From NCBI RefSeq assembly GCF_018449775.1, contig NZ_JAAVVB010000003.1:620001-684000 (forward strand): DNA of 64,000 nucleotides, read 5' to 3'. Both the position numbers and the translations under genes were made by a program. The notes beneath the pieces were generated by a model. That model was not told the DNA's origin. It saw only the letters and a program-made list of their open reading frames with translations, and made no database searches. Below are positions 28,137-47,217 of the stretch, piece after piece. This stretch comes from Mucilaginibacter sp. dw_454 (GTDB lineage: Bacteria > Bacteroidota > Bacteroidia > Sphingobacteriales > Sphingobacteriaceae). Every line of letters begins with the position of its first letter. Within the stretch, counting starts at the first letter, position 1.

Positions 28137-29243
28137 CTAAACGAGTTTCTTCCGCAACCATTTCCTAACCGGCTCATCATACCATTTCAATGCAGCGTAG
28201 GCCAAAACTACCGCGCCTGTTAAAATCAGTAACGCATATGGCCACGCCTGTACAATTGTAATGCCCTTATGGTTGCTGACCCAGGCAACGTAAAAATAAA
28301 CCAGTGGATAATGCACCATGTAAAGTGGATAGGAGATAGCACCCAGGAATTTGCATATCCTGTTTTCTGTCTGCGTTTTTATCACACCGCTGGCACCTAC
28401 GTATACAATAAGCGGGAAAACGATGATGATGCATACAGATTCATAGATTCCGTTCATCCAAAGATGCCCGGCGCCGCCAATGCGTGGCATATATAGTATG
28501 ATAATTATTAAAAGGCTGCACCATAAAAAGGCATTTTTAATTTGACCAGGTTTTACTACGCGTGACAGTAACAAACCGGCAAAGAAGGGATATATGGTGC
28601 GGGTTAGCCCAATGCGCACCTGTTCTACATTCAGTGTCCAGCCGCCACTAACATCGCCGTTTGTAATAGCCAGTTGTGCAAGCGCGATGGCAGCAATGCT
28701 TACCAGGATTATTAACGCCGTTTTAGAAAATTTCCTGATCCATACAGCATAAAGAATGTTGGCAATGTATTCAAAAAATAATGACCACCCCACGCTATTG
28801 AGCGGGTGCATCTCTTCCCAGCCCCGTATATCAAGCGATAAGGGTACAGGCAGGATAGTATAACCAATCAGCATCACCAGCAGCATCTTCCAGGCGGGGA
28901 CGGTATGAATAAGCGGCCATAGCGTAGAATCCGTAAAATAGAATCCAAGAGCGCCCAGCGTCATCCCCAAAACCACCATAGGCTGTAGACGTTCGATCCG
29001 GCGCTTGAAGAAACTGCCCACCGTCATTTTATTCCATCTGTCGTCATAAGCATAGCCGACCACGAAACCTGATAATAAAAAGAAAAAGTCGACAGCCAGG
29101 TAGCCGTGGTTAACCAATTTATCTAAATTTCCGGTGGCTAATGGCTCGCACAAGTGGAAGGTTACAACAATGATGGCAGCCACACCACGAAGGCCATCTA
29201 ATATGGGGTAGTGTGGCTTGGTGGCCAACTGATTATTATTCAT
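28137..29243 (-). CDS. Acyltransferase family 3 membrane protein (OafA/YrhL-like)
   Basis: About ten membrane helices and the N-terminal motif YPILDGLRGVAAIIVVTFHLCEP with the conserved catalytic-type His identify an acyltransferase-3 protein (368 residues). These enzymes O-acylate surface sugars or other exported molecules using cytoplasmic acyl donors. The second loop FFKRRIERLQP and the late SYPLYMVHYP helix also fit. No sugar genes are adjacent, so the substrate is open. The divergent 337-bp spacer upstream holds copy B of the heptamer element. Confidence 0.9.
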   Translation of the reverse strand: MNNNQLATKPHYPILDGLRGVAAIIVVTFHLCEPLATGNLDKLVNHGYLAVDFFFLLSGFVVGYAYDDRWNKMTVGSFFKRRIERLQPMVVLGMTLGALGFYFTDSTLWPLIHTVPAWKMLLVMLIGYTILPVPLSLDIRGWEEMHPLNSVGWSLFFEYIANILYAVWIRKFSKTALIILVSIAAIALAQLAITNGDVSGGWTLNVEQVRIGLTRTIYPFFAGLLLSRVVKPGQIKNAFLWCSLLIIIILYMPRIGGAGHLWMNGIYESVCIIIVFPLIVYVGASGVIKTQTENRICKFLGAISYPLYMVHYPLVYFYVAWVSNHKGITIVQAWPYALLILTGAVVLAYAALKWYDEPVRKWLRKKLV

Positions 29244-29354
29244 TAATAAAATGGGATATACAAACTATGCATTGAAACTGTCGCAAATTATAAAAAAAAT
29301 GGTTCGTGCCGGGACATGACATTGATGATATAGCCCTTTTTTATTTAAAATTGC

Positions 29355-29493
29355 TGATCCAAAACAAACCTAAAAGTCAGGAAAAGTGATCCAACTATTA
29401 AAGTAGTTTAATTATAACGAATTAATTTTCAATGTATTAAATTTTCATGGCGATCCAACTGATCCAAACTGATCCACTTTCTCAGGTGGATCA
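29355..29493. repeat. Heptamer-array intergenic element, copy B (word TGATCCA)
   Basis: Words at 29355, 29387, 29451 (CGATCCA), 29460 and 29470 (all same direction) and the inverted word TGGATCA at 29487-29493. The gaps are 25, 57, 2, 3 and 10 nt. Read in reverse these equal copy C exactly. The last two words form a hairpin. It occupies the divergent spacer between the acyltransferase and M1 peptidase genes. The remaining spacer (29494-29580) shows no clear promoter. Confidence 0.88.
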
Positions 29494-29580
29494 CCTGCGA
29501 CGCTAATTGCTGTAATGATTTTCTTACATAATTTGCCCGGCTATTTTTATATTTTTACCATTCAAACTAAATATTAGCTG

Positions 29581-31659
29581 ATGAAATTAAACATTACTGC
29601 CGGTTTAGCGCTGGCTTTCTGCGCCGCTTTGAGCACCGCTAATGCTCAAACTACACCCGCTACGGGCAAGGGCCAACAAATAAGCGTTGGTCGCGCGGTG
29701 GAGGTTACAGATCCAAACGCTCCGCCAACCAAGTACGATTATCACGACACTTTCAAGCCTTTCTTTTACACCAAAAACGGTAGCGAGTTTCGTGCGGCAG
29801 ATGGACAGCCGGGCCCGAAATACTGGCAAAACCGCGCCGACTACCAATTGAACGCAACTTTGCATGAAGATGCCAACGAAATTGTTGGTACCGAGGTATT
29901 AACCTACACCAATAACAGCCCGCAAAAATTAGGCTTTATCTGGATGCAGCTTGATCAGAACTTGTTCAAGCAAGACTCGCGCGGTATTGCGCAGGTGCCG
30001 CTTGATGCAAATGGCAATCCAAAAAGCCGTAACTGGGGCCAGGGCCAGGTATTTGATGCCGGCTTCAAGATCAAATCAATCAAAGTTATAAGCGCCATTA
30101 AAGGCGCTAAAGGAACCAACGAGATAGACGTTAAATACCTCATTAATGATACCCGTATGCAGGTATTCTTGCCTAAGCAGCTTGCTGCAGACGGTGGCCA
30201 ACTGAAATTGAAAATAGAATACTCATTTGTATCGCCCGATTATGGGTCTGACCGTATGGGTATCATCAATACAGATCAATCTAAAAACGGTAAGATCTTC
30301 CAGGTGGCGCAATGGTACCCACGTATGTGTGTGTACGATGAGGTGCAAGGCTGGAATACTTTGCCTTATACCGGCGAAAGTGAGTTCTACTTAGAATACG
30401 GCGATTTTGATATCAACATTACCGCACCGGCTAAAGACATTGTGGTATGCTCTGGCGAACTATTAAACCCTGCCGAAGTATATACGCCTCAACAACAAAA
30501 ACGTTGGGCAGAGGCGGCGCAAAGCGATAAGCCGGTCATGATTCGTACCGCCGATGAGGTAACCAGTACCTCGTCACGCCCTGCGGGAAAACAAGAGCTA
30601 ACCTGGCACTTTAAGATCAATAGCGCGCGCGACGCTTCATGGGGAGCGTCATCAGCATTTATAGTTGATGCGGCTAAAATTAACTTGCCAAGCGGTAAAA
30701 AATGTCTGGCTATATCTGCTTATCCGGTAGAAAGCAGCGCCGCATACGGCAAGGGCCAGTGGAGCCGTGGCACCGAGTTTATCAAAGCTTCTATCGAGTA
30801 CAATTCAAAGAAATGGTTTGAGTTCCCTTATCCTAATGCAACCGGTGTTGCCGGTAAAGCCGGTGGTATGGAGTACCCGGGCCTGGTATTTTGTAGCTTA
30901 AACGGTGGCTGGGGTGTAACCGACCACGAGTTTGGCCATACCTGGTTCCCGATGATTGTTGGCTCGAACGAGCGCTTATATGGTTGGATGGACGAAGGTT
31001 TTAATACTTTTATCAATACCTTATCTACCCAAAACTCATTAGGTGGCGAGTTCTACAAACCGGCTACTGCCGAAGGACTGCTACGTAACTGGAAATCATG
31101 GACCCGTCCGGGATTGGAGCCAATCCTGAGCAATCCGGATAACCTGAAGGAGATAAACAATGGTACACTATTGTACAGCAAACCAAGCGCAGGCCTGGTG
31201 ATGCTGCGCGAGCAGATTTTGGGCCCCGAGCGTTTTGACTTCGCGTTTAAAACTTACATTAACCGCTGGGCATTTAAACACCCTACACCCGATGACTTTT
31301 TCCGCACCATGGAAAATGCTGCCGGCGAGAGCCTGCAATGGTTTTGGAGAGGCTGGTTCGAAAACAACTGGCGCCTGGATGTTGCCGTACGCGATGTGAA
31401 ATACATTAACAGCGACGCTAAACAAGGCGCTATTATCACTATAGATAATCTAGAGAAAATGGCTATGCCAGTTGTATTAGAGATCAAAACTGTTAGCGGC
31501 AAGACCGAGCGTGTAAACTTTACAGGCGAGATCTGGGAACGTAACGTAAGCTGGTCATTCAGATATCCGTCAAACGAAGAAATTGAATCTGTGACTTACA
31601 ACCCCGACTCAACTCTACCAGACTATAATCCATCCAACAACGTTTGGAAGAAACAATAA
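29581..31659 (+). CDS. Exported M1 family metallopeptidase
   Basis: This is a zinc aminopeptidase-type protein of 692 residues with a signal peptide ([22 protein letters not shown]). The zinc site HEFGH is followed 18 residues later by the third ligand Glu ([10 protein letters not shown]), the M1 pattern HExxH-x18-E. The exopeptidase motif [10 protein letters not shown], matching GxMEN with Tyr for Asn, lies about 25 residues before. An N-terminal beta domain and a long C-terminal helical part complete the fold. Likely periplasmic peptide degradation. A strong terminator follows. Confidence 0.92.
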
Positions 31660-46191: not shown

Positions 46192-46887
46192 TTACAAATT
46201 CAATTCGCGGACATAAAAATCCTTGATGTCGACGGTAGTATGCTTTGGTCCGCGGGCCAGTTGAAAGCCTATGTTGCCATCCAGGAATGCGCCTTCGTAA
46301 TCAGAGTCGATTGTTTTAACGCCGTTTAACCAGGCCTCAATGTGATGGCCGCGTGCTTTGATATAGTAATGGTTATATTCATTAGCCTTTACCAGCCTTG
46401 ATGCGGCACGGCCGGGGTAACGTTGCAGCATACCCGCACGGCCCTCTTCTGAAAGTGAACCCCAATAACCCTTGCCCATATCTATGCGGTATCCGGCAGC
46501 TTTATCAAAATTATCCGGATGCACGCGCAGGAAAACGCCTGAATTGGCATCATCATCGCCACTGATCTTTACCAGGATGTTGGCTTCGAAATCGCTATAG
46601 ATCCGCTTACTGTAGCTATAATGGTTTTGTGAGGGATCATTACAATCTCCATGCAACGTGCCGTTAGCTATTTTCCAATATTCAGGTTGCAGGTTCAGCT
46701 TTTGGGCGTCAAGCATGTTGGTCCAGCCCTGGCCAATGGGTTTGTCGTCAATTAGTTTGCCATCAGCAGGGAGGGTGACGTTTTGGGCAGTGGTGTCGCG
46801 TTGGGCAAACGCAGTGTTTGCCCTAAAGGTAATAGCTACGAAGGCGCAAGCCAAAACAATGGCCGACCGCTTGCAAATAAGGTGCAT
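46192..46887 (-). CDS. Exported DUF1080 (3-keto-disaccharide hydrolase-type) protein
   Basis: A signal peptide (LICKRSAIVLACAFVAITFR...AFAQ) precedes a concanavalin-like beta sandwich of the DUF1080 family: GWTNMLDAQKLNLQPEYWKIANGTLHGD, FEANILVKISGDDDANSGVFLRV, and YNHYYIKARGHHIEAWLNGVKTID (quoted as landmarks). Family members cleave or bind 3-keto-sugars or glycans in the periplasm. ATG 46887 gives 231 residues; a GTG at 46911 is possible. Genes for sugar oxidation are not nearby. Confidence 0.85.
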   Translation of the reverse strand: MHLICKRSAIVLACAFVAITFRANTAFAQRDTTAQNVTLPADGKLIDDKPIGQGWTNMLDAQKLNLQPEYWKIANGTLHGDCNDPSQNHYSYSKRIYSDFEANILVKISGDDDANSGVFLRVHPDNFDKAAGYRIDMGKGYWGSLSEEGRAGMLQRYPGRAASRLVKANEYNHYYIKARGHHIEAWLNGVKTIDSDYEGAFLDGNIGFQLARGPKHTTVDIKDFYVRELNL

Positions 46888-46990
46888 GAAATGGTAATAA
46901 TTGGTTACCACTAATTTAGAAAAATATCGGCATTGACAAAAAAATGTTTAAAGGTTAGTAAGCTGATTAGCGCTGTTATTAAGGTAATGG

Positions 46991-47129
46991 TGATCCACGC
47001 GGGAATGTGGATCAGTTTGGATCAATTGGATCACCATAAAATTGCAACTATCTGTAAATTAATAAATTAAATGAAAACTGGTTTAATAGTTGGATCACTT
47101 TTTATGACTTTTAAGTCTTTTTTGGATCA
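46991..47129. repeat. Heptamer-array intergenic element, copy C (word TGGATCA)
   Basis: Inverted word TGATCCA at 46991, then TGGATCA at 47008, 47018, 47027, 47091 and 47123. The gaps are 10, 3, 2, 57 and 25 nt, the exact mirror of copy B. Both copies are 139 bp and align without gaps. The first two words form a hairpin with a CGCGGGAATG loop. It lies in the 306-bp divergent spacer between the DUF1080 gene and the small DUF4359-like gene. Confidence 0.88.
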
Positions 47130-47217
47130 CCTAAATTAATGTTAGAAAATGATTAGATATTTTTTTCATTCTAAAATCAGGAAAGTAAGAGTCATTAAAT
47201 AACGATATCTTTAACTA

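Follow-up and report, generated by a model that had tools for sequence, protein, structure and literature searches.

Dispersed six-box DNA arrays in Mucilaginibacter, their linkage to an AAA_25-HTH ATPase gene and their turnover at shared intergenic sites

Iteron origins that work with an initiator-helicase are represented by phage P4 alpha, SaPI Rep and plasmid RepA. The arrays described here resemble such origins in that short direct repeats flank an AT-rich stretch and lie next to a gene whose protein combines a helicase fold with a DNA-binding domain. They differ in being chromosomal, in having many gene-less copies and in the absence of primase, plasmid or phage genes among what was seen around them. 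A second comparison is with the REP/RAYT systems, in which family-specific intergenic repeats are dispersed through the genome, one cognate chromosomal gene lies beside the same repeat, and most copies are gene-less (PMC2817692). The arrays are likewise short, intergenic and dispersed in the genome of their cognate gene, and most copies are gene-less. In contrast, the partner of the arrays is a RecA-fold ATPase with a helix-turn-helix (HTH) domain rather than a Y1 nuclease, a six-box array lies mostly upstream of the gene where REPs form two inverted palindromes flanking it, and a given site can hold arrays of different families from one species to the next. The arrays also share with MITEs their small size, dispersal, short inverted ends and lack of coding capacity. 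As regards the other features of MITEs, no transposase with the same ends turned up among the neighbours of 79 elements as far as these are annotated, and reading 13 flanks by eye showed no evident target-site duplication, with no clean array-only empty site as comparison. A few term-based searches of the open-access literature returned no published description of the array system, and this pairing of repeat and partner gene looks like one that has not been described so far.

The window, a stretch of 64,000 nucleotides, contains two of these elements, copy B (29355-29493, + strand) and copy C (46991-47129, - strand). The gapless 139-bp match between them that the initial annotation reported was reproduced, with 109 identities and zero gaps. 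Because the box offsets are the same in both copies (0, 32, 96, 105 and 115, with an inverted box at 132), the spacings of 25, 57, 2, 3 and 10 nt also stand. Of the six heptamers, all are exact in copy C and five in copy B, whose third box is CGATCCA (29451-29457). Both elements in fact extend 2 bp beyond these limits at either end. The window contains TGATCCA 18 times where 5.5 occurrences would be expected, a count reached by none of 100 shuffles. In both copies the left cluster consists of a single box and the right cluster of three, where most copies of their family have two in each; with one fewer on the left and one more on the right, they keep the usual total. Copy B lies between divergent genes as had been stated; copy C is bordered by a hydrolase gene and a short putative ORF, beyond which atpC lies on the hydrolase strand. 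The features are as follows.

29353..29495, + strand: family A array element, copy B, 143 bp, ends GC/TGATCCA...TGGATCA/CC (E 4.9e-25)
29355..29361, + strand: copy B box 1, TGATCCA, left terminal box
29368..29379, + strand: copy B conserved spacer motif ACCTAAAAGTCA (consensus GACTTAAAAGTCA)
29387..29393, + strand: copy B box 2, TGATCCA, left cluster
29394..29450, + strand: copy B AT-rich middle, 57 bp
29451..29457, + strand: copy B box 3, degenerate, CGATCCA
29460..29466, + strand: copy B box 4, TGATCCA
29470..29476, + strand: copy B box 5, TGATCCA, arm of the terminal hairpin
29487..29493, - strand: copy B inverted terminal box 6 (TGGATCA on the + strand), other hairpin arm
46989..47131, - strand: family A array element, copy C, 143 bp (E 1.0e-27)
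47123..47129, - strand: copy C box 1
47105..47117, - strand: copy C conserved spacer motif GACTTAAAAGTCA
47091..47097, - strand: copy C box 2
47027..47033, - strand: copy C box 3
47018..47024, - strand: copy C box 4
47008..47014, - strand: copy C box 5
46991..46997, + strand: copy C inverted terminal box 6
28137..29243, - strand: neighbour of copy B, acyltransferase (PF01757)
29581..31659, + strand: neighbour of copy B, M1-type peptidase
46192..46911, - strand: neighbour of copy C, 3-keto-disaccharide hydrolase domain protein, not seen there in relatives

Both copies belong to a dispersed family, family A, for which a sequence-model search of the window's own Mucilaginibacter genome (G000) found at least 16 full copies at E < 1e-24 and two partial ones. 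A search for the conserved left half with up to three mismatches gave 13 places in the genome, and the reversed control pattern had no match genome-wide. The exact tandem pattern TGATCCAAMTGATCCAAACTGATCCA also had no match, because copy B has a degenerate box 3 and because both the spacers and the number of boxes differ between copies. The initial annotation had named chance duplication as the outcome if only these two copies existed and relatives had none. With 16 copies of family A against none for the control pattern, chance duplication was rejected, and relatives carry array families as well. A sequence model built from the 13 left-half places produced about 26 weaker matches besides family A, and those inspected proved to be a second family, family B, with the same plan and the word TGTTTCA/TGAAACA. 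Four further copies were found later, and family B has at least 26 copies in G000. Elements of family A are mostly 141-153 bp, one being longer, and have sharp ends (GGTGATCCA...TGGATCACC) that form terminal inverted repeats, with unrelated flanks. Mean identity is 0.745 within family A and 0.740 within family B, against 0.53 between the families. Exactly six exact boxes are present in 12 of 16 family A copies and 18 of 22 family B copies.

Further families occur in other Mucilaginibacter species, many of which are represented by draft or metagenome assemblies. Their words are mostly of the form TGNNNCA.

Family C, in G019: TGATCCA/TGATCCG
Family D, in G036: TGTTACA
Family E, in G016 (M. agri): TGGTGCA/TGGAACA
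Family F, in G069, G105 and G140: TGTACCA/TGTATCA
Family G, in G158: TGGCACA

The spacer GACTTAAAAGTCA is common to families A, B, E, F and G, and the word is the part that varies. Among 84,980 genomes, the shared spacer together with the TGNNNCA box pattern was found at 10 Mucilaginibacter loci and on one Sulfurimonas contig. Other words were noted at locus L385 of G140 (TGAATCA) and at L396 of G105 (TGGAACA), both at the site of a family B element of G000 and directly after a terminator-like hairpin.

The arrays are linked to a gene for an AAA_25 ATPase with a C-terminal HTH domain (AAA_25-HTH), a gene family that adjoined elements in G000 as well as in G019. Two such genes, 68% identical, are present in G000. 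An element of family A lies 82 bp upstream of the one at C1:2903-4000, and an element of family B lies upstream of its paralog at C13:560564-561640. The gene also stands beside an array of matching word in G019 (family C word), G158 (TGGCACA) and G140 (family F word, about 730 bp upstream), and in each of these the word at the gene is one dispersed in the same genome. For G016 (TGGTGCA), the match between gene and array was predicted first and then found. When 60 homologs were compared, a [TC]GNNNC[AG] word repeated at least four times within 600 bp was present upstream of 23 and downstream of two (Fisher 2e-6); the other 37 had no four identical boxes upstream in these counts, which rest on simple string matching and leave weaker or older arrays of some homologs uncounted. 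Of 149 Mucilaginibacter genomes, 97 have the gene, which is present in up to eight copies and is otherwise found in few members of the family. Arrays for which no matching partner gene was found in the same genome include those of G036 (TGTTACA) and G069 (TGTCCCA). In G036, the dispersed word at locus L046 differs from the TGGTACA upstream of that genome's only AAA_25-HTH gene. A separate motif, TGACA-N5-7-TGYCA, occurs upstream of 34 of the 60 homologs and downstream of none (for example at about 2836-2857 of L127), and it is also present within dispersed copies of family F. As a genome-wide operator, TGACA-N6-TGTCA was rejected, with 66 matches against 52 for the reversed control when two mismatches were allowed. 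No regulon was derived from this motif because it is about as frequent as its control.

The AAA_25-HTH protein matches the Pfam AAA_25 model and HTH models, and its confident structure model (AlphaFold2, AF2; mean pLDDT 84.8) indicates a RecA/RepA-fold ATPase with a C-terminal helix-turn-helix. The ATPase part matches RepA of RSF1010, T7 gp4, DnaB, RadA and KaiC at Z about 20, all of them RecA-fold proteins. No transposase, nuclease or integrase domain was found in the protein, and it had no match to PF01797 (Y1), the Y1 genes being separate. There was no confident NCBIfam or PADLOC match, and PHROGs returned mainly DnaB-like helicase and primase models. No conserved neighbour gene accompanies the partner, and no transposase recurs beside the 79 elements of G000 and G019 as far as the genome is annotated. 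The recognition helix and the box word showed no significant covariation beyond overall protein distance (partial Mantel, partial r 0.03, p 0.37), so that direct recognition by the HTH helix is at most putative; single positions reached uncorrected p values of 0.01-0.05 at best.

Both window copies lie in lineage-specific stretches, as the arrays are missing at these places in the relatives compared. At the site of copy B, the outer genes are adjacent in six relatives, which have neither the acyltransferase gene nor the array, and in the closest relative homology resumes about 13 bp to the right of the element (about 29508). At the site of copy C, the four closest relatives compared had no match to the hydrolase gene or the array. 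Since a neighbouring gene is absent along with the array in each case, these empty sites do not isolate the insertion of the array itself. Several other array sites of G000 are occupied by arrays in G019 too, in the same orientation and at nearly the same offset, with distances to the gene in G000 and G019 of 7 and 5, 64 and 63, 11 and 14, and 229 and 242 bp. Three of these shared-site pairs differ in family (B versus C); the pair L129/L188, in opposite orientation, was left out. The upstream region of gyrA holds an array in the same orientation in five genomes, with these words:

G000: TGATCCA
G019: TGATCCA/G
G069: TGTCCCA
G105: TGTTTCA
G141: TGTTTCA/TGTTACA

G140 has no array upstream of gyrA. 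By eye, the gyrA array of G141 resembles, spacers included, the array of that genome's own AAA_25-HTH gene. The family differences at shared sites point either to whole-array replacement at fixed positions or, just as well, to very specific targeting. The elements are also oriented with respect to genes. Of the 79 elements of G000 and G019, 43 have their hairpin end, and seven their left end, no more than 100 bp from the 3' end of a gene, where genes were called simply as longest ORFs, so that single distances may be off, and where family C elements can reach left past the edge of the model match, which would lower the count of seven.

On balance, we lean slightly toward the reading that copies B and C are non-autonomous copies of a dispersed array that is the cis-acting site of its cognate AAA_25-HTH ATPase and is copied in trans. 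About six 7-bp boxes around an AT-rich middle would form the site of a RepA/DnaB-like RecA-fold ATPase, and the gene for this ATPase has a copy of its own array upstream. The protein would probably act as a hexamer that grips the boxes with its HTH domains, a ring of six subunits being a plausible fit to six boxes. The ATPase might then open the AT-rich middle, much as an initiator-helicase does at an iteron origin, and new copies could be placed in trans at preferred positions between genes with the hairpin end toward the gene 3' end. An incoming array could displace one of a different family that was there before. Another enzyme, of the host or of a mobile element, may be needed, because no nuclease or strand-transfer enzyme was identified. 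Overall, the repeats are probably bound by the helicase-HTH protein and spread through it, in the manner of a REP/RAYT pair that lacks a transposase. The data establish the copy families, the linkage of gene and array, the missing arrays at both window sites in relatives, the orientation bias and the change of family at shared sites, and from there we infer binding, mobility, strand opening and helicase-driven copying. More tentatively, the arrays might be mobile DNA of a new class: a helicase-HTH protein of RecA/RepA fold, with no transposase, would spread its iteron-like arrays through the chromosome and overwrite rival families at fixed sites, leaving each species with the same sites in a different word. 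The initial annotation had offered a binding array, a transposase-less mobile element or a small structured RNA; the first two are favoured here in combination, and the third is without positive support because Rfam, with sub-threshold matches only, has none at the array elements and because the boxes and their spacing look like those of DNA-binding sites.

The main rival is a regulon or chromosome-organising role, in which AAA_25-HTH acts as a nucleoid factor or as a regulator that binds DNA, selection maintains the arrays at certain intergenic positions, and the words shift with the specificity of the protein. It appears the less probable account, and yet same-site occupancy in several species is also expected of a functional regulatory site. 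The orthologous sites with equal orientation and near-equal offsets, including gyrA in five genomes, are consistent with such a role, and the array upstream of the partner gene and the TGACA-N5-7-TGYCA motif shared by the homologs suggest autoregulation. The spacers outside the boxes and the hairpin loops, however, are specific to the family and common within a genome, a pattern more in keeping with the copying of whole arrays than with drift in place. The likeness in G141 between the gyrA array and that of the AAA_25-HTH gene tells in the same direction, and the genes beside the arrays had no common function that could be seen.

That the arrays are MITE-like or REP-like elements moved in trans by an IS200/RAYT-type Y1 or other transposase, with AAA_25-HTH as a passenger or accessory, is unlikely. 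The sharp, short inverted ends and the intergenic dispersal would fit, and RAYT-like genes are present in many of these genomes, two of them adjoining an AAA_25-HTH gene. In G000, however, which has the most copies, the Y1 matches amount to two overlapping short pieces, and the matching of words goes with the ATPase gene and not with a transposase. The RAYTs inspected have other palindromes of their own alongside. Among the Y1 loci scanned, G016 (L102) was the one case of a Y1 gene with an array nearby, and RAYT was rejected as the mover. A two-gene unit of AAA_25-HTH and RAYT was likewise rejected, being present at two of 30 loci.

Still less probable is a role of the hairpin end as a 3'-end RNA element, either a terminator or an mRNA stabiliser, with the rest of the array incidental. 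The hairpin end does abut gene 3' ends, and one array copy, folded as a single DNA strand, was more stable than shuffled sequences (z -2.8). No T-run follows the hairpin, however, a terminator-like hairpin already precedes some elements, the six-box register and the left half of the array would be left unexplained, and Rfam has no match at the elements. An operator of the GntR/MocR type, an early lead from box symmetry in that the boxes at the right end are arranged similarly to the most frequent MocR motif, with two direct boxes plus one inverted (PMC5320631), is very improbable and was dropped once the linked gene proved to be AAA_25-HTH and not a GntR-aminotransferase, none of which was identified among the recurrent, mostly unannotated array neighbours, and the elements are copied whole with their spacers.

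The arrays and their partner genes form a natural set of DNA words, each paired with a candidate cognate protein. With them it can be asked how repeats of one family spread when no transposase is recognisable and whether arrays have been recruited beside core genes such as gyrA, and the chromosomal sites at which families are swapped between species allow the question of how one family displaces another. Should a regulon be the correct account instead, the turnover of whole arrays at conserved positions would be unusual.

Other repeats were observed as well. A dispersed repeat of about 100 nt (GCGTTAGGGAT...GGATACCGGCC...GGTAACGCC) with no Rfam match adjoins the G000 arrays L003, L004, L006, L012 and L030, and a dispersed palindromic repeat of the CGTCATTGCGAGC...GGCAATCTC type lies near the family B elements L146, L156, L242, L353 and L354 of the same genome. 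The RAYT-like Y1 genes at L101 (G019) and L097 (G069) have palindromes of their own (GTAAGCGTGGACGCTTAC and GCACTCGTTGCAAACGAGCGC, respectively) that are unrelated to the arrays. In G140, one copy of the GCGCTCGTTTGCAACGAGTGC palindrome (L389) seems to lie within a coding sequence, the end of which is repeated on the other side.
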